Assembly: GCA_014904985.1 (NCBI GenBank)
Contig: MU128963.1
Location: forward strand, 267,592-282,360
Direction of reading: 5' to 3'
Length of the DNA stretch: 14,769 nt
Origin: Hydnum rufescens UP504
Lineage: Eukaryota > Basidiomycota > Agaricomycetes > Cantharellales > Hydnaceae
A model generated the notes under the pieces. It was given only the letters and a program-made list of their open reading frames with translations, did no database searches and was not told the DNA's origin. The position numbers and the translations under genes are program-made. Position 1 is the first letter of the stretch. Every line of letters starts with the position of its first letter. Positions 2,641 to 11,587 of this stretch are shown here, piece by piece.

Positions 2641-2840
2641 GATATATCATTGACTATTGCTAGTCCATATCACATTCCATTCTCCAATAAACACATACAT
2701 ATCTTGCAGAGAGTGATCAACCATCGAAGCGAACCAACCCATTTGAATAAACAGAAACACAGTCTCCTATCTACACACTGGCTGAACCAGATTTTGATTT
2801 GACAGTCATCGGAGCTCCTAACCCTTCTTCTATAGCGCAC

Positions 2841-4180
2841 ATGCCCATATTTCGCCCGGGCCTTTCCTGTGGATTCTTTGGATGGGGGTTTTGCAGAGTG
2901 AGAAAATCTAGAATAGTGCATATGTTAGTTTTAAAAAAATAACAAAAGCAATGCCAAAAGAGCAGCCAGGGCTGCTCTTTTGGTGTCGTTGTACACCCCA
3001 TAATAAAAAACCACATACCTAATATTGCCACACACCCGCCGAAGTGGGTGTGTGGCACCGTACTTGTTTCATCATCATATGGGTTGTGGGTGCTCAAGAG
3101 TTGGGGTCTTGGGTGGCTGCGCACTCCTGTGTTTCATGGTGCATTGTCTGTGCATTCTCCGGGTTGGGTTTCGTGGAGGGAGAAAGAACCTAGAGTAATT
3201 AAATACATTAGTAAAAAAAAAAAACACAAGCAATGCCAAAAGAGCAGCTGGTGCTGCTCTTTTGGCATTGTAATACACCCCATAATTTAAAAAAATGGAC
3301 CTAATACACCCACCAAAGTGGGTGTGTGGCACCGTGCTTGATTCGTTGTTGTAGGCATTGGGGATACGCAAGGGTTGAGGTCCTGGGTGGCTGTGCACAT
3401 GCCCATATTTTGCCCAGGCCTTGTCCACGGATTCTTTGGATGGGGGTTTCGCGGAGTGAGAAAACCTAGAATAGCACGTATGTTAGTTTAAAAGAAATAA
3501 CAAAAACAACACCAAAAGAGCAGCCGGGGCTACTCTTTTGGCATTGTCATACACCCCATAATAAAAAAACACATACCTAATATTGCCACACACCCGCCAA
3601 AGCAGGTGTGTGGTGCCGTACTCGTTTCATCATCATATGGGTTGTGGGCACTCAAGAGTCGGGGTCTTGGTGGCTGCGCACTCCTGTATTTCATGGTGCA
3701 TTGTCTGTGCATTCTCTGGATCGGGTTTCATGGAGGGAGAAAGAACCTAGGATAATTAAATATGTTAGTAAAAAAAAAATACCATAAGCAATGCCAAAAG
3801 AGCAGCTGGTGCTGCTCTTTTGGTGTCATAATACACCCTGTAATTTAAAAAACTGACCTAATACACCCACCGAAGTGGGTGTGGCACCATACTTGATTCG
3901 TCATTGTAGGGGTTGGGTTGAAGTGCTGGGTGGCTGCATGCACCCCCATATTTCGCTCTGGGCCTTGTCTGCGCATAATTTGGCTGGGGTTTCGCAGAGG
4001 GAGAGAGGATCTAGAATAACGAATTTGTTAGTAAAAAAAAACAACACAAGCAATGCCAGAAGAGCAGCTGTTGCTGCTCTTTTGGCATCGCCATACACCC
4101 AGATAAAAAACTTACCTAATAGTGCCCCACACCCGCTGCGGCAGGTGTGTGGCACCATCTTGTGCTTGCTTCAGGTGGCC
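2841..4180 (-). repeat. left block of five exon-intron cassettes, minus strand
   Basis: Read on the minus strand, predicted introns are 4011-4115, 3747-3857, 3466-3576, 3190-3300 and 2908-3018 (105 or 111 bp). Donors are GTAAGT, GTCAGT, GTATGT, GTCCAT and GTATGT. Each intron has an AAAAGAGCAGC-type hairpin (AGAAGAGCAGC on one strand in the first), a T tract, an ACTAAC branch motif and a CTAG acceptor. Each exon ends in a CACCC/GGGTG hairpin before the donor. Cassettes alternate between two types, giving a dimer period of about 557 bp. Frames that cross these blocks change between copies and run through the predicted introns, so I do not call them genes. Confidence 0.75.
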
Positions 4181-4450
4181 TTAGTAGAGTAGAGATTCAA
4201 TGCTGGCGATTGCCGGCCTCAAAAAAGTGCCCAAGTAGGGGCAGTACAAGGCTCATATAAATAGATAATAGATACACATAGAATAATACTAAATATGTAT
4301 TATTTAGTATTCTATGTGTAGGTATCTATTATCTATTTATATGAGCCTTGTACTGCCCCTACTTGGGCGCTTTTTTGAGACCAGCAATCGCTGGCATTGA
4401 ATCTCGTCTGATTCTACTCTACTAAGGCCACCTGAAGCAAGCACAAGATG
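4181..4450. promoter_or_regulatory. AT-rich palindrome centre, candidate divergent promoter
   Basis: This is the innermost part of the inverted repeat and contains no hairpin cassette. Each side has the same outward order: an AT-rich core with CTATTTATATGAG (TATA-like, plus-strand copy at about 4333-4345), the shared GCCTTGTACTGCCCC block, a run of six T in the outward direction, CAATCG flanked by short complementary GC words, and then GGCCACCTGAAGCAAGCAC before the first cassette. Because both arms read outward, this is where a start for both transcripts would be expected. Promoter activity is inferred from position and composition only. Confidence 0.35.
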
Positions 4451-4484
4451 GTGCCACACACCCGCCACAGCGGGTGTGTGGCAC
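4451..4484 (+). repeat. exon-end hairpin of the first right-arm cassette, perfect 15-bp stem
   Basis: GTGCCACACACCCGC (4451-4465) pairs perfectly with 4470-4484 across a CACA loop. The donor GTAAGT begins six bases further on, at 4491. This is the reference form of the exon hairpin. Confidence 0.85.
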
Positions 4485-4490
4485 TATTAG

Positions 4491-4597
4491 GTAAGTTTTT
4501 TATCTGGGGTGTACGGCAATGCCAAAAGAGCAGCAACAGCTGCTCTTTTGGCGTTGCTTGGGTTGTTTTTTTTTTACTAACAAATTTGTTATTCTAG
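4491..4597 (+). other. predicted intron with internal hairpin (reference cassette)
   Basis: The donor GTAAGT lies at 4491, followed by a hairpin whose arms GCCAAAAGAGCAGC (4521-4534) and 4539-4552 pair perfectly over an AACA loop. The stem extends to 19 pairs (4516-4557) if one G-U pair is allowed. A run of T, then TACTAAC ending at 4581, and the acceptor TTCTAG ending at 4597 complete the intron. The hairpin lies between donor and branch point, where pairing shortens the effective distance between splice signals in some yeast introns. Whether it does so here is inference. Confidence 0.65.
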
Positions 4598-5841
4598 ATC
4601 CTTTCTCCCTCTGCGAAACCCCAGTCGAATTATGCGCCAAGGGTGAAATATGGGGGCGCGCACAGCCACCCAAGACCTCAACCTTCGCATATCCTCAACC
4701 CCTACAACGATGAATCAAGTATGGCACCACACCCACTTTGGTGGGTGTATTAGGTCAGTTTTTTTAAATTACAGGGTGTATTACAACACCAAAAGAGCAG
4801 CACCAGCTGCTCTTTTGGCATTGCTTATGGTATTTTTTTTTTACTAACATATTTAATTATTCTAGGTTCTTTCTCCCTCCATGAAACCCAATCCAGAGAA
4901 TGCACAGACAATGCACCATAAAATACAGGAGTGCGCAGCCACCAAGACCCCGACTCTTGAGTGCCCACAACCCATACGACAATGAAACAAGTACAGCACC
5001 ACACACCCGCTTTGGCGGGTGTGTGGCAATATTAGGTATGTGTTTTTTTATTATGGGGTGTACGACAACACCAAAAGAGCAGCCCCGGCTGCTCTTTGAT
5101 GTTGCTTTCATTATTTTTTTAAAACTAACATACACACTATTCTAGGTTTTCTCACTCCGCGAAACCCCCATCCAAAGAATCCGCGGACAAGGCCCGGGTG
5201 AAATACAGGCATGTGCGCAGCCACCCAGGACCTTAGCCCTCACGTATCCCCAATGCCTACAATGACGAATCAAGCACGGCGCCACACACCCACTTTGGTG
5301 GGTGTATTAGGTCTGTTTTTTTAAATTATGGGGTGTATTACAACGCCAAAAGAGCAGCACCAGCTGCTCTTTTGGCATTGCTTGTGTTAGTTTTTTTTAC
5401 TAACATATTTAATTACTCTAGGTTCTTTCTCCCTCTGCGAAACCCAACCCGGAGAATGCACAGACAATGCACCACGAAACACAGGAGTGCACAGCCACCC
5501 AAGACCCCGACTCTCAAGTACCCACAACCCATATGATGACAAAACAAGTACGGTGCCACACACTTGCTTTGGTGGGTGTGTGGCAATATTAGGTATGTGT
5601 TTTTTTATTACGGGGTGTACAATGACACCAAAAGAGCAGCCCTGGCTGCTCTTTTGGCATTGCTTTTGTTATTTTTTTAAAACTAACATATGCACTATTC
5701 TAGATTTTCTCACTCTGCAAAACCCCTGTCCAAAGAATCCACAGACAAGGCCCGGGCGAAATACAGGCATGCGCGCAGCCACCCAAGACCCTAACTCTCA
5801 ACTATTCGCAACCAATACAATGAGGCGACCTCAAATATGGA

Positions 5842-5871
5842 GCCACACACCCGCCGAAGCGGGTGTGTGGC
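5842..5871 (+). repeat. terminal exon hairpin with no donor after it
   Basis: GCCACACACCCGC (5842-5854) pairs perfectly with 5859-5871 over a CGAA loop. In every other right-arm cassette the hairpin is followed by ...TTAG and a GT donor. Here the sequence changes to unrelated DNA after CAAT, which marks the end of the block. Confidence 0.8.
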
Positions 5872-5875
5872 AATC

Positions 5876-6585
5876 AGCCCCTCTGTGTTTCCGCGCTATC
5901 CAATCAGTTCAAACTCCATGTATCCATTATCCCACAACTCTGTAAATAGTGACATCTGCCCTGAAGTCTTCAAGCCCATGTTCAACCCATCACAAGGTCT
6001 TTACTGTGTATTAATCTGATGATCACCCGACTTTCAAAAGGATCAAGACATTCATGGTGCCCTGGAATCTTTGGATTATGGTTGAGGATGAAGATGTGGA
6101 TGGTGAGATTAGTGGAAGATGAACACCCTGACTGTCCCAATGTATGAGCCCTTTGGCCCTTCCCACCTAAGTACTTAGTGTCATTAGTTTTGAATCACTG
6201 GCTCTGTGGAGAGTCGGCAGCCAATCTCATTCAAGGACCTGATCCTTCCTAAGTAATTCCCTCTCACAACTCCTCTCCTCTCCCTCCAGCCACTCCCTCT
6301 TGCTACATTGCACAAGGAACTTGAGGGACCACACCCAAGCAAATTACAGTCATTCTCTGGTATCAATACTGTGATCATTGGCCTGCGGGGTCCCCCTGGG
6401 TTTTTCAACCCCATCTTGTATCCCGCAGCTTTTGCACCCGTGAGTCATGGGGGCGGGTTTTCAACCCTGTGGGGCGGGAGGTCCTAAATTCCCCCGTGGG
6501 GACCCCGTGCAATAGCCTACCCCAACAGACACCCTTCTGTATGCAAAACCAAGTACAAAGCACATGACTGGGGTGCAAAATTGGT
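5876..6585. other. 710-bp spacer between the palindrome and the third block, no gene seen
   Basis: No cassette, convincing reading frame or RNA gene is visible. A minus-strand frame at 6184-6414 (76 codons) lacks recognisable features and I do not call it. A GC-rich inverted-repeat segment at 6386-6507 is listed separately. The last 40 bases lead into the first hairpin of the third block. Confidence 0.5.
6386..6507. repeat. short GC-rich segment bounded by inverted repeats
   Basis: CGGGGTCCCC at 6386-6395 is repeated inverted at 6498-6507. Between them are two related words, GGGTTTTTCAACCCC and GGGTTTTCAACCCTG, each a small stem-loop. The segment of about 122 bp resembles a short nonautonomous repeat. 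No flanking target duplication was found. Confidence 0.45.
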
Positions 6586-6623
6586 ACCACACACCCACTT
6601 CGGCAGGTGTGTGGTAATATTAG

Positions 6624-6723
6624 GTACGTCTCATCCCACTGGTGCCAAAAGAGCAGCAGAAGCTGCTCTTTTGGCACCTTTATTTCTTTTTTTTTACTAA
6701 TGGATTATTATTTGTTGTTCTAG
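6624..6723 (+). other. predicted intron with 17-bp internal hairpin
   Basis: The donor GTACGT opens the intron. GGTGCCAAAAGAGCAGC pairs perfectly with its partner over an AGAA loop, a 17-bp stem. A T tract, TTACTAAT and the acceptor TTCTAG follow. The outer stem pairs (GGTGCC/GGCACC) differ from the right-arm form (GCAATGCC/GGCGTTGC) but still pair. Confidence 0.65.
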
Positions 6724-6875
6724 GCTCCTTTCCTCTGTGAAAACCTGCCTGACAAGCAGATGGGCAAGCCCCCAGTATGCGCAGCCCCCCAAGCCCAAAG
6801 GGCCTGCCCCCTGAAATGATGATCAACAAACCTGTGTACCCCACACCCGCTTCGGCAGGTGTGTGGTAATATTAG

Positions 6876-6974
6876 GTATGTCTAATTGCATTGGTGCCAA
6901 AAGAGCAGCAGAAGCTGCTCTTTTGGCACCTCTGTTTTCTTTTTTTACTAATGTATTATTATTTATTGTTCTAC
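6876..6974 (+). other. predicted intron with a broken acceptor (CTAC)
   Basis: The donor GTATGT, the 17-bp hairpin with AGAA loop and the TTACTAAT branch motif are all present, but the expected TTCTAG end reads TTCTAC at 6970-6974. A transcript would have to use another AG or retain this intron. It is the only full cassette in the three blocks without a consensus acceptor. Confidence 0.55.
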
Positions 6975-7126
6975 ATTCCTTCCCCCCATGAAAACCCACC
7001 TGACAAGCACATGGGCAAGCCCCAGTATGTGCAGCCACCCAAGTGGAGAGGGCCTGCCCCCCAAACATGGTGATCAATGAAACTGTGTACCACACACCTG
7101 CTGCAGTGGGTGTGTGGTAATACCCT

Positions 7127-7242
7127 GTAAGTTTTCAATTACAAGACCTATGAAAGCACCAAAGAGCAGCAGAAGCTGCTCTTTTGGTGCTTCCTTTGTT
7201 TTTTTTTAGAAAAATTAATGTGTTATTTATTGATTGATCTAG
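7127..7242 (+). other. predicted intron with re-paired hairpin base
   Basis: The donor GTAAGT starts after TACCCT, without the usual TTAG. The hairpin has an AGCACC outer arm pairing with GGTGCT, in place of GGTGCC and GGCACC in the two preceding introns, so both sides changed. One A is missing from the left arm. The branch motif is weak (ATTAATG) and the acceptor is ATCTAG. Confidence 0.55.
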
Positions 7243-7386
7243 GCCCTCTCCCAGCACGAAAACCCCTGCACAAAAAAGGGATGTGCACAGCCACCTGCAA
7301 CCCGCAACCCGATCCAAGAACCCGTGATCATGGTGCAAAAAACAAGTACCACACACCTGCTTTGGTGGGTGTGTGGTAATTTTAAG

Positions 7387-7479
7387 GTGAGTACAACTGC
7401 ACAAGAGGAGCAGTGTAGGCTGCTCCTTTTGTGTGGCTTTTCTTGTTTTTTTTACTTAACATATTATTTATTATTTTAG
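7387..7479 (+). other. predicted intron with GGAGCAG/CTGCTCC hairpin
   Basis: The donor GTGAGT follows TTTTAAG. The stem CACAAGAGGAGCAG pairs with CTGCTCCTTTTGTG, 14 pairs including one G-T (G-U in RNA), over a six-base loop. The branch motif is ACTTAAC and the acceptor TTTTAG. Compared with the palindrome introns a G has been gained in one arm and a C in the other. Confidence 0.6.
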
Positions 7480-7638
7480 TTTGTCACCTGGACCCAACAC
7501 CCACAACCCCACTGAACGAACACAGGAGAACGATGACCCACCCACCAAATGAATCCTGCAAACAGCAATGAGTCAAAACCACAACACAAGCCCCAGATGA
7601 ACCCCATGCCCACTGAAGTGGGTGTGGTAATCTTTAAG

Positions 7639-7741
7639 GTAAGTATATATGTACATGTCTGACTATGCAAAAGGAGCAGCAGGGGCTGCTCCTTTTGCCT
7701 GGTTTTTCTTTTTTTAACTAACTTATTATTTATTGTCATAG
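7639..7741 (+). other. predicted intron with perfect 14-bp variant hairpin
   Basis: The donor is GTAAGT. GCAAAAGGAGCAGC pairs perfectly with its partner over an AGGG loop. Compared with the reference GCCAAAAGAGCAGC both arms have lost one base and gained another at matching positions. The branch motif is TAACTAAC and the acceptor CATAG. Confidence 0.65.
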
Positions 7742-7854
7742 GTATTCTTCTGAACCTGCATCCCCCAACTGAAGCCACAACCCTGCTGAGTGAAAACATG
7801 CGACCATGGGTGAGGGGGAACCCCAATGGTGAAGCATGAAATGACATCCCCGGT

Positions 7855-8033
7855 ACCACACACCCACCCAAGTGGGTGTGTGGTGCTACTAGATAGTTGT
7901 TGTTTTTATTTTTTTGTTCTTTGATTTCTATGGACAGTACCACACACCCGCTAGAGCAGGTGTGGTGCTACTAAGTAGTCTTTTTTTTTGATTTCTACAG
8001 AGTACCACACCAGAGTGGGTGTGTGGTATAATT
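7855..8033 (+). repeat. shrunken terminal units: hairpins separated by short T-rich tracts
   Basis: After the last intron, the hairpin ACCACACACCCAC/CCAA/GTGGGTGTGTGGT at about 7855-7884 is followed by two more CCACAC...GTGTGG hairpins at about 7939-7966 and 8003-8027. They are separated only by T-rich tracts ending in TGATTTCTAYRG-like words and ACAG. The inner AAAAGAGCAGC hairpin is absent. The second gap (GTAGTC to TTTCTACAG) is only 26 bp, too short for a spliced intron. These look like decayed or minimal cassettes. An AAAT-type simple repeat follows at about 8034-8053. Confidence 0.55.
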
Positions 8034-8053
8034 TTAAATAAATAAATAAATAA

Positions 8054-8516
8054 TAAGAATGAAACATGGGACTCCTGAATGAAACCCCACTGACCTGGGG
8101 TAGCATAAGTATAATATAGTGATAATAAATAATTAATTATAAATGGAAGATATTATCCCTGATAAGCCCATATGGCCTGCTGCAAGTCTGAGATTCTCTA
8201 AGTCCCAGTTTTGGCCAATTTTCAGCCATTTCAGCCAATTCTGGGCCAGGAGGTGAAATCATAAAAATGGCCATTTCAGCTGAAATAGTGATGGGACCTA
8301 CTTAGGTACCATTATCTGCCCTGGAAGTGGTACCTAACTAGGTAGGCTTAGATGACTGACCAAGGTGACAACAAAGCAATCAGGCAAGTGTAACTAAGGC
8401 AGGTCATGGGATCAACACATTACCTCTGAATCAAGCTTTGCCTTTGATTGGGCCATCTGCTGAGCAACATCTCCTCCAGTCATCACAATAGTGGCAGTCA
8501 TTGAAGCTTTTTCCAT
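8054..8516. other. intergenic DNA with an inverted repeat, no complete gene seen
   Basis: ACCTACTTAGGTACCA-type sequence at 8297-8311 is repeated inverted at 8328-8346, next to a perfect palindrome ATTTCAGCTGAAAT (8273-8286) and several GGCCATTTCAGC-like words. From 8516 down to about 8424 the minus strand stays open in the frame of the gene to the right (from an ATG just past its TGA), so this part may be a decayed extension of that gene. Confidence 0.45.
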
Positions 8517-9859: not shown

Positions 9860-11587
9860 TCAGAATGAAGACTGCTTTCTCTGCCAGAATGAATGAAGCA
9901 TCATTGTGAATTGATGTAAGTTGAGCAGCACAGAGTCCATGCCATGCTCCTGCTCCTCAACAGAGATCTGAGCTTCTAGAGCCATGGGCATAAAAGTACA
10001 GGCTGCCATTGGACAGACACATTGTGGAGACAGAACTGGATTCAGAGGATGAAGGTCATGTTCCAACATATATTGGCATGTTTCATTCTTGAAGATTGAG
10101 AAAGGAGGGGCAACTGCCAGCAAGCTGTTCCATTCCTCCAATGATTTTGAACATGCATATACTTCTGTGACATAATGCAAGTTGATGTCAGCACACTTGA
10201 TGGCTTGCATGTTTATTGAAGGATGGTCGATGAGCTCAACATATACAAGTTGCCTCTTTGTCTTGCTTGCAGTGAACAACTCCACCACAGGCTCTGCTCT
10301 AGCTCTCTCCTTGAAGTATAGGTGAATCCTCATGGTCACACTGTGAGCATGTCTTGTTACCCAGACTTGAGTTACTGCAAATGCACCTGTGTCCCTGAAT
10401 TCATCCAACCACTGCCATATGATTTGCTCCAGAGTGCCATTACCTTCACCCTCCTCATGCTGACCTATCTCCACTGAAAACCACTGCTGGACTGAGATGT
10501 AGGCAGGAGACATGGCAATAGGAGGGGGCACAGGAGGAGAAGGTACAAGAGAAGGCACTAGAGGAGAGGGCATGAGAGGAGAGGGCATGAGAGGAGAGGG
10601 CATGAGAGGAGAGGGCATGAGAGGAGAGGGCATGAGAGGAGAGGGCATGAGAGGAGAGGGCCATGAGAGGAGAGGGCATGAGAGGAGAGGGCATGAGAGG
10701 AGAGGGCATGAGAGGAGAGGGCATGAGAGGAGAGGGCATGAGAGGAGAGGGCATGAGAGGAGAGGGTGCGAGAGGAAGAGAGGGTGTGAGAGGAGGAGAG
10801 AGTGTGAGAGGGGGAGAGGGCACAACAGGAGAGGACATAACAGGAGAGGACATAACAGGAGAGGACATAACAGGAGAGGACACAACAGCAGGAGAGGGCA
10901 TGACAGGAGGCATAGAAGAATTCTCAGTAGGGGTGACTGATGCAGAAGCAAGGTCTCCAGGACCATTCACTGAAGGCACATCATGCACAGATATCGTAGA
11001 CAATTGAGCCTCTATGTGCAACTGCTCTTGTACCAGTCTTGAGGCCTTAGTCTGACGATCAGCTCTTGGACCCCTGGGAGCACCAGCAGGAGGGGGGCTT
11101 CATCTCCCAATCCAGTGTAATCTCAAGTCATGATTCTGCAACTGGGAAGGTCCTGTCACAAATGATCCACTCCTGCACCAATGCCCTGAAAAATCACCTT
11201 CCTGTTGACAATCCTGCTGGCTGAGATCATGATGATGATCATTCATGGGTTGATTGCACTGGAAACCACTTTCACCAGAATCTGATGACTGACTCCCCCT
11301 TTGTTCTGCAGAATCTCTTGAAACATGCATGGGCCCAGATACTGTCTTTTCAGAGACAACAGGTGAATGAGGTGTGGCAGGAGGGCTGGGTGATTACTTG
11401 AAGTGGAAACTGTCATCTGTTGAGAAGTGGTGGTGACATGATGTGTGGGGAAACTGAAAAGAGGTTGTAGATCATAGATGTACTGATTTGGGTAATCAAC
11501 AGCCCCAAAAAGTAAATCTACCCCAAACTGTATCCATGTGAAAGACACTTCCCCCAGTGTAAGCAGGATGGTTATCAACCAATCCAA
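9860..11587 (-). pseudogene. decayed gene with SPLMP repeats and an unrecognised C-terminal domain
   Basis: Reading on the minus strand, coding-like sequence runs from about 11587 to a stop at 9860 but needs at least three repairs. A TGA at 11100-11102 interrupts an otherwise continuous frame (...LHWIGR stop SPPPAGAPRG...). One extra C at 10661-10662 shifts the frame within the minisatellite, since SPLMP repeats read in one frame above it and another below. Around 11375 the frame must also change, from ...TSSNHP to SPPATPHSP.... The N-terminal part is rich in Q, S and H, then comes the proline repeat, then about 210 residues of ordinary composition (…QQWFSVEIGQHEEGEGN…, then …VYVELIDHPSINMQ…). 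The family is not recognised. Further coding-like pieces continue to about 11714. Confidence 0.55.
10561..10771 (-). repeat. 15-bp coding minisatellite, about 13-14 units
   Basis: The plus-strand unit GAGGAGAGGGCATGA repeats exactly six times from 10561, once with an extra C (10651-10666), then about six more exact copies and one variant to about 10771. Diverged 15-18 bp relatives (AACAGGAGAGGACAT and others) continue to about 10915. On the minus strand it encodes the pentapeptide SPLMP. The plus strand is almost pure purine with mirror symmetry (GAGAGGAGAG), the kind of tract able to form triplex DNA. Near-identity of units implies recent expansion or homogenisation. Confidence 0.9.

Follow-up and report, generated by a model that had tools for sequence, protein, structure and literature searches.

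A 14,769-nt stretch of the genome of the basidiomycete Hydnum rufescens UP504 (order Cantharellales; contig MU128963.1 of GenBank assembly GCA_014904985.1, here contig C55:267592-282360, referred to below as the window) was analysed together with the 63.2 Mb, 539-contig genome to which it belongs. Read from its sequence, the window cuts through two dispersed families of non-autonomous DNA transposon, A and B, which carry the same cargo. This cargo is an array of cassettes, each made up of an exon-end hairpin, a donor, an intron hairpin, a T tract, a branch motif and an acceptor. The ends of the elements, the target duplications in most of the copies checked, the dispersal, the layout of the arms and the recurring order of the signals are established at the level of sequence. 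On balance we take these transposons to be carriers of divergent, multi-intron, noncoding structured transcription units, which would be started at a palindrome and spliced as predicted.

The initial annotation of positions 2841-8033 had described a single array of fifteen exon-intron units. All fifteen are present where it placed them; the hairpin pattern finds 14, and the fifteenth (7387-7479) has one changed base. Every unit starts with GT and 14 end with AG, the other being the unit at 6876-6974, whose TAC had been recognised as a mutated acceptor, and the five splice junctions which had been named agree to the base. The units are therefore real, but the array is not a single one: the first five units lie on the minus strand, blocks 1 and 2 form the two arms of a single inverted repeat with its centre near 4298, and block 3 belongs to the other transposon. 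A family B piece (2835-6519) has been inserted into a family A copy (6520-8367). Nearly all donors of the diverged third block had been regarded as fitting the consensus; GT is present in 15 of 15 units, and four of the fifteen donors (GTCAGT twice, GTCTGT and GTCCAT) are weaker than this implied. The arms diverging from a palindrome, the two transposon families, and the 5' end that one of them shares with elements encoding a KDZ transposase had no place in that annotation. The features are given below, with donor, branch and acceptor in that order for the introns; for the introns at 5311-5421, 7127-7242 and 7387-7479 the edges were judged by eye from the sequence.

2835-6519, no strand: family B element, divergent cassette arms and palindrome; inverted repeats I1/I2/I10/I17; right terminus at 6519
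4192-4405 (arms 4192-4275 and 4322-4405), no strand: central palindrome of family B, I17, 94% complementary; predicted two-way transcription start
6520-8367, plus: family A element, 3' part, KDZ-type ends, plus-strand arm; 3' terminus CTGACCAAGGTG at 8356-8367
2908-3018, minus: predicted intron with hairpin; GTATGT, ACTAAC, TAG
3190-3300, minus: predicted intron with hairpin; GTCCAT, ACTAAT, TAG
3466-3576, minus: predicted intron with hairpin; GTATGT, ACTAAC, TAG
3747-3857, minus: predicted intron with hairpin; GTCAGT, ACTAAC, TAG
4011-4115, minus: predicted intron with hairpin; GTAAGT, ACTAAC, TAG
4491-4597, plus: predicted intron with hairpin; GTAAGT, ACTAAC, TAG; fold of 4447-4596, z = -11.0
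4754-4865, plus: predicted intron with hairpin; GTCAGT, ACTAAC, TAG
5036-5145, plus: predicted intron with hairpin; GTATGT, ACTAAC, TAG
5311-5421, plus: predicted intron with hairpin; GTCTGT, ACTAAC, TAG
5593-5703, plus: predicted intron with hairpin; GTATGT, ACTAAC, TAG
6624-6723, plus: predicted intron with hairpin; GTACGT, ACTAAT, TAG; fold of 6580-6725, z = -5.8
6876-6974, plus: intron with hairpin, acceptor mutated; GTATGT, ACTAAT, TAC (TAG in the L009 copy)
7127-7242, plus: predicted intron with hairpin; GTAAGT, ATTAAT (by eye), TAG
7387-7479, plus: predicted intron with hairpin, one changed base; GTGAGT, CTTAAC (by eye), TAG; repeat family D2
7639-7741, plus: predicted intron with hairpin; GTAAGT, ACTAAC, TAG
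3017-3059, minus: stretch with exon-end hairpin; repeat family D3
3306-3328, minus: exon-end hairpin, short form, by eye; within repeats D8 and D11
3585-3614, minus: exon-end hairpin, by eye; overlaps repeat D11
3863-3882, minus: exon-end hairpin, short form, by eye
4114-4156, minus: stretch with exon-end hairpin; D3
4443-4485, plus: stretch with exon-end hairpin; D3; folds
4716-4758, plus: stretch with exon-end hairpin, short form; D3
4988-5030, plus: stretch with exon-end hairpin; D3
5271-5313, plus: stretch with exon-end hairpin, short form; D3
5545-5587, plus: stretch with exon-end hairpin; D3
5832-5874, plus: final exon hairpin of block 2, not followed by an intron unit; D3
6576-6618, plus: stretch with exon-end hairpin; D3; folds
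6828-6870, plus: stretch with exon-end hairpin; D3
7079-7121, plus: stretch with exon-end hairpin; D3
7338-7380, plus: stretch with exon-end hairpin; D3
7604-7627, plus: exon-end hairpin, partly decayed, by eye
7845-8033, plus: three terminal exon hairpins without intron hairpins, then an AATAAA-rich predicted 3' end; D3/D8

A search of the genome with one unit (6570-6840) gave at least 223 matches on many contigs (40 of the 919 candidate regions were scored), and the units recurred in the same order at place after place, with identities falling through approximately 92, 85 and 74%. Local tandem duplication as the sole origin of the array was ruled out by these copies on many contigs and their recurring unit order. 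Twenty stretches were fetched around such places, and the later set consisted of the window and 24 stretches (numbered L below, as contigs are numbered C). No match was found in the plasmid collection searched, and a search for tRNA returned none.

The family A part of the window is 87.6-89.8% identical to the copies L009, L010, L012, L013, L015 and L018-L020. Full copies share about 5.4 kb (eg L009:582-6027 with L010, L012, L013 and L018) and have fixed ends, CAGGCTGGTCAGTCA... and ...TGACTGACCAAGGTG; C133:19081-24526 and C119:38062-43485 are among the full-length copies. The termini are CAGG...GGTG, ie CA...TG, in all nine two-ended copies examined, and the terminal inverted repeats are imperfect, the first 15 bases of the two ends matching at 12 of 15 positions. 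An exact target duplication of 7 or 8 bp flanks seven of these nine copies, and an eighth, L018, has one of 7 bp, found by eye, if its start is set at CAGG. The duplication measures 7 bp in L010, L013, L025 and (by eye) L018, and 8 bp in L009, L012, L026 and L028. Copy L022 and two pairings of ends on C6 have no clean target duplication, a point against the transposon reading. Genome-wide, the 5' terminus CAGGCTGGTCAG occurs at 755 sites (control 2) and the 3' terminus at 477 (control 5).

Family A looks, from its sequence, like a passenger of a KDZ transposase and not itself KDZ-encoding, because its 5' end is shared with KDZ elements and because its CA...TG ends and the 7-bp duplications of some copies resemble those of Kyakuja. 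No stop-to-stop frame of more than 180 amino acids was found in the L009 element; it is other elements that contain the KDZ domain. KDZ transposase (PF18758) is very abundant in this genome, with at least 154 matches (584 candidates, 150 scored); one of its KDZ frames is 100% identical, over 86% of its length, to the H. rufescens UP504 protein BS47DRAFT_1255798. Among the 23 matches listed on contigs C1-C26, eight have CAGGCTGGTCAG on their downstream side, 1.6-2.3 kb away and oriented toward them; counts in the remaining three orientation classes are 0, 0 and 2, and 15 of the 23 are without a convergent CAGGCTGGTCAG. One KDZ-linked end (L039) has in common with family A the first 12 bases and a subterminal palindrome around AGGTACCA...TGGTACCT. 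The other four that were fetched (L040-L043) share the first 12 bases and less beyond. Section 3.2.1 of PMC12730594 reports CA...TG termini, 7-bp duplications and a lack of inverted termini for two Kyakuja families (KDZ group) of Laccaria. Family A is like Kyakuja in its 5'-CA...TG-3' termini, in the 7-bp duplications of some copies and in having a 5' end common with KDZ-encoding elements of the Hydnum genome. It is unlike Kyakuja in that no transposase was found in it, in its imperfect 15-bp inverted termini compared with none in Laccaria, in the 8-bp duplications of four copies, and in its cassette arrays. Many of the KDZ frames are broken, mostly by TGA, for which decay of methylated CpG is the presumed cause. 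At L042 (C26:393900-395950) the KDZ-linked end directly follows a cassette exon hairpin and GTGAGT donor, and that element seems to have been inserted into a cassette.

The family B terminus TAGGCTATTGCACGGGG, read inward, is at window position 6519. The termini are 17-bp inverted repeats, and there are 27 exact occurrences of the terminus in the genome (control 0). Target duplication was checked in two copies: the one in C92 (L050) is flanked on both sides by the 8-bp duplication TGGCAAAC, and the complete copy at C41:129032-133367 is without a clean one, a point against family B as a transposon. The tandem units of family B alternate and are about 280 bp long. No transposase was seen in family B, although no search aimed at one was made. 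The terminus, TAGGC..., resembles the end pattern of hAT transposons, and the 8-bp duplication in C92, one of the two copies checked, is a further likeness to hAT; the arrays of intron-bearing cassettes are unlike hAT elements. In the window the left arm is truncated at 2834/2835 by a different repeat, whose last bases, up to 2834, are ...CTTCTTCTATA. This repeat (1149-2834) is found at 80.8-92.6% identity over all or most of its length in L012, L023 and L024, and by eye its end CTTCTTCTATA also interrupts the family B copy in C138.

The element in L009 runs in the order terminus, four minus-strand cassettes (by the hairpin pattern), a 665-bp palindrome, nine plus-strand cassettes, an AATAAA-rich tract and terminus. 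A run of minus cassettes followed, after a single switch, by a run of plus cassettes was found in 10 of 10 stretches, namely the nine two-ended family A copies and the family B piece of the window. Among the matches listed, the same order occurs at nine more family B-related loci (C2:642-645 kb, C41, C53, C92, C104:200-204 kb, C138, C182, C195 and C225), while some other loci in the list, eg C108, C250 and C437, have matches on one strand only, and in C169 plus matches precede minus matches at a distance of about 7.5 kb. With minus cassettes before and plus cassettes after the palindrome, transcription along the cassettes would therefore run outward.

The intron-hairpin pattern AGAGCAGCN{3,8}GCTGCTCT occurs at 4,235 sites in the genome compared with 1 for the reversed pattern, so the array of intron hairpins is not due to chance. 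In its exact form the pattern fits 192 of the 289 cassette hairpins in the 25 stretches examined, and the genome total is likely to be near 6,400 if these stretches, which were chosen by similarity, are typical. The exon-hairpin pattern CCACACCCN{4,12}GGGTGTGG has 865 sites (control 0). A third type of stem with the same plan was found in L029 (C6:404900-414899, approximately 5291-8068, palindrome near 6850); its exon hairpin is CCACACCCCAGC...GCTGGGGTGTGG and its intron hairpin AAAGGGCAGC...GCTGCCCTTT, the latter with 127 genome sites (control 0). The L029 cassettes surround a long near-perfect palindrome and adjoin a family A element. By eye, one L029 exon seems to carry an open aspartate-rich frame and may once have been coding.

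Signals for splicing were sought on both strands at the 289 hairpin sites of the window and the 24 stretches. A donor (at least 6 of 8 consensus bases), a branch and an acceptor are present on at least one strand at 238 sites, and on both strands at 25; at 32 sites there is no branch-acceptor pair on either strand. Counted per strand, 263 of 577 pass the signal test, compared with 206 of 5,260 shuffled versions of the sequence flanking the 263. From 571 strand-hits 208 sense cassettes were kept, by a T-richness rule that itself favours intron-like flanks, and removal of near-duplicates left 67 non-redundant cassettes. The best sites in these, chosen by a scan that is biased toward the consensus, have a GT donor in 60, an ACTAAY branch in 49 and a YAG acceptor in 62, and 47 of the 60 GT donors are GTGAGT, GTAAGT or GTATGT.

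It had been proposed that the array is constrained as a structured, intron-bearing unit while its exon bodies change, and the right arm of L009 bears this out. Exon bodies, taken without the hairpin, align (z > 5 over shuffles) in 1 of 28 pairs, compared with 35 of 36 for introns; z is 18 for one neighbouring exon pair, which are close copies. On the sense strand of the same arm the T content is 13.7% in exons versus 38.3% in introns.

The intron stem has 16-23 pairs in 180 of the 208 sense cassettes, its loop is 4 nt in 63 of the 67, and its core GAGCAGC/GCTGCTC is almost invariant, being partly fixed by the search pattern. The seven innermost pairs, also partly fixed in this way, were left out of the covariation evidence. 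At pairs 8 and 12 none of 2,000 partner shuffles reaches the observed covariation, and three do at each of pairs 11 and 16; the corresponding numbers at pairs 14 and 15 are 50 and 23. Loop sequences differ between the strands, with GNRA intron loops in 15 of 67 sense cassettes compared with 0 antisense, and UNCG exon loops in 12 sense compared with 1 antisense among the 39 exon loops found. Six cassette stretches, including one sense-antisense pair, fold at z -5.8 to -11.3, and none of 200 shuffles of each is as good.

Some of the arrays have already been annotated as genes. Eleven annotated Hydnum proteins resemble the translation of the joined exons (nine with E < 1e-3, two weaker), and the public annotation models arrays as small multi-exon hypothetical proteins (P0034 in L022, P0036 in L023, P0039 in L021 and P0043 in L009). 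Exact mapping onto cassettes succeeded for four of the proteins (in L009, L021, L022 and L023), and 18 of their 20 introns end at the cassette acceptor. Splicing of the cassettes is thus strongly predicted, since the signals are ordered, exons drift where introns stay alike, T content differs, stem pairs covary, loops are strand-specific and the gene models use the cassette acceptors.

Apart from the bias of the scan, several observations weigh against this prediction. The best donor lacks GT in 7 of the 67 cassettes. No clear covariation is seen at pairs 9, 10 and 13 (2,000, 341 and 107 of 2,000 shuffles reach the count). The search for exon hairpins succeeded in just 39 of the 67 cassettes, and UNCG is less strongly biased toward the sense strand when redundant cassettes are included, 41 versus 10 of 136. 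Stem changes to G-U and to A-C number 8 versus 7 in the set of 67 and 31 versus 19 in the redundant set; because they are about equal, pairing at the RNA level is not clearly proven by wobble tolerance. Sense and antisense strands fold with equal stability, and the purine bias of the intron loops may be compositional. One exon-exon junction was searched for in the genome, with 71 matches listed (40 regions scored out of 122 candidates), and no spliced, intronless copy was among them. Finally, the annotated introns begin at the cassette donor in just 5 of 20 cases, and 13 of the other 15 donors are inside the exon hairpin (GTGTGT and similar), where they keep the frame open. If RNA-based, the models would move many of the cassette donors farther upstream; for introns 1 and 2 of the L009 model the shift would be 15 and 17 bases. 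We take these public models to have been forced into open frames, and they are not proof of splicing.

We suggest that the elements would have been moved in trans, family A by the KDZ transposase of the elements with which it has its 5' end in common. RNA polymerase II would probably start at the central palindrome and stop at the AATAAA-rich tracts before each terminus. In yeast introns, shortening of the path from donor to branch point by a hairpin can improve splicing. The hairpin here sits between the donor and the branch point and removes about 40 of the roughly 100 bases from the path, and it would be likely to draw the two together and so speed splicing. Dense, good introns might then make the transcripts resemble those of well-spliced host genes, and so escape the silencing set off by poorly spliced transposon RNA. 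In Cryptococcus neoformans, stalled spliceosomes can trigger production of small RNA against transposons (Dumesic et al. 2013, as cited in PMC6643885). Evasion of silencing is the function that we prefer, as a weakly supported and rather doubtful proposal made by analogy; a non-autonomous element needs no RNA in order to move, which tells against it. More broadly, we tentatively regard the arrays as a possible new type of transposon cargo, ie a mobile, self-multiplying noncoding gene made of dual-hairpin cassettes in at least two families and transcribed both ways from a palindrome, whose splicing would serve the element as camouflage from silencing or as a source of hairpin RNAs in their thousands.

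Close behind evasion of silencing, though still improbable, is the proposal that the cassettes host small structured RNAs, on the model of the host genes of small nucleolar RNAs (snoRNAs), in which the exons are by-products and each intron yields a stable or Argonaute-bound short hairpin. The single hairpin per intron, with its uniform stem, 4-nt loop and nearly invariant core (subject to the part fixed by the search pattern), would be expected of such genes, as would noncoding, T-poor exons. The exon hairpin has no explanation in these terms, and no Rfam family was above cut-off in the window or in L009:500-6100; these sequences therefore contain no known box C/D or H/ACA RNA. Known structured RNAs were rejected as an identification, the microRNA-type Rfam matches being all below cut-off and lying on palindromes and hairpins.

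It is unlikely that the palindromes act as DNA, with GAGCAGC and CCACACCC as inverted half-sites for a transposase or host protein, and the splice signals a relic of the sequence that was first amplified. Transposons often bear repeated binding sites, each of the two hairpins is an almost perfect palindrome whose short spacer is mostly 4 bp, and compensating changes and equal folding of the two strands would fit a DNA palindrome too. Such sites would leave unexplained why donor, branch and acceptor keep their order where exon bodies no longer align, the sharp difference in T content between intron and exon, the strand-specific loops, and the outward direction of the arrays in all ten stretches.

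At least as unlikely is selfish tandem growth, in which the hairpins drive repeated duplication inside the transposons and the signals persist by being copied from old units. Neighbours are sometimes close copies, as in the exon pair with z 18 and the alternating units of family B, but copying would have kept the exon bodies as well as the introns, contrary to the alignments in the one element, L009, and the same plan is found in two families with unrelated ends and in a third stem type.

The initial annotation had also considered an introner-like element that multiplied along with its exon, ie an intron itself mobile and spreading into genes. The abundance of similar introns bearing hairpins and splice signals recalls this, but the mobile unit is a DNA transposon of approximately 4-6 kb with its own ends, its termini and target duplications are far outside the introns and its boundaries unlike theirs, and the matches lie in arrays with recurring unit order; this origin we consider very improbable. 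It is equally improbable that the joined exons encode a repetitive protein, as the public multi-exon models might suggest, since the longest frame in the ten joined exons of L009 (169 amino acids) is equalled or beaten by 189 of 300 exon-order shuffles, 3 of 8 middle exons there have a length that is a multiple of 3, exon bodies are mostly unrelated and the four mapped models place their donors differently. Protein coding was rejected on this frame, and the earlier statement that exon reading frames are not conserved agrees with the lack of a coding frame that stands out. A protein search with antisense frames found none among 104 candidates.

The carriers look like known kinds of DNA transposon. 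The cargo, noncoding arrays of dual-hairpin cassettes common to families with unrelated ends, would be of its own kind if the units are indeed spliced. Foldback and Galileo-type elements have long inverted arms of tandem subunits around a centre, as the Hydnum elements do, but the Hydnum arms are mutually diverged, consist of exon-intron cassettes and have different termini. In snoRNA host genes such as UHG and Gas5, noncoding exons alternate with introns each holding one structured RNA. The Hydnum arrays have the same alternation with one hairpin in each predicted intron, but no known RNA family is found in these introns, the exons end in a hairpin and the whole is borne by a transposon. Introners are similar introns spread by DNA transposition, and Pezizomycotina is the fungal group named in this connection in PMC9860276. 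The cassettes are like them in both respects; unlike introners, their intron edges are not element edges, and the introns are within the transposon's own noncoding unit. In the open-access literature searched, no title or abstract was found that describes such cassettes.

Why an element that codes for no protein should require introns is not obvious. Yet noncoding units bearing hairpins and splice signals are repeated by the thousand here, in two transposon families with unrelated ends, and in the one element tested the intervening sequence has diverged past recognition. If spliced, the arrays would amount to a large natural experiment on the function of introns, and on good splicing as a shield from RNA-based silencing, an idea made directly testable by the work on stalled spliceosomes in another basidiomycete. 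There is also a practical consequence, in that the public annotation labels some cassette arrays as protein-coding genes.

Two further observations were made. Five IMG/VR contigs (L044-L048) carry the hairpin AAAGAGCAGCNNNNGCTGCTCTTT at one site each. Elsewhere in the window, positions 10485-10925 hold an array of approximately 23 copies of a 15-bp repeat (GAGAGGGCATGAGAG) within a long minus-strand open frame at 9860-10966.

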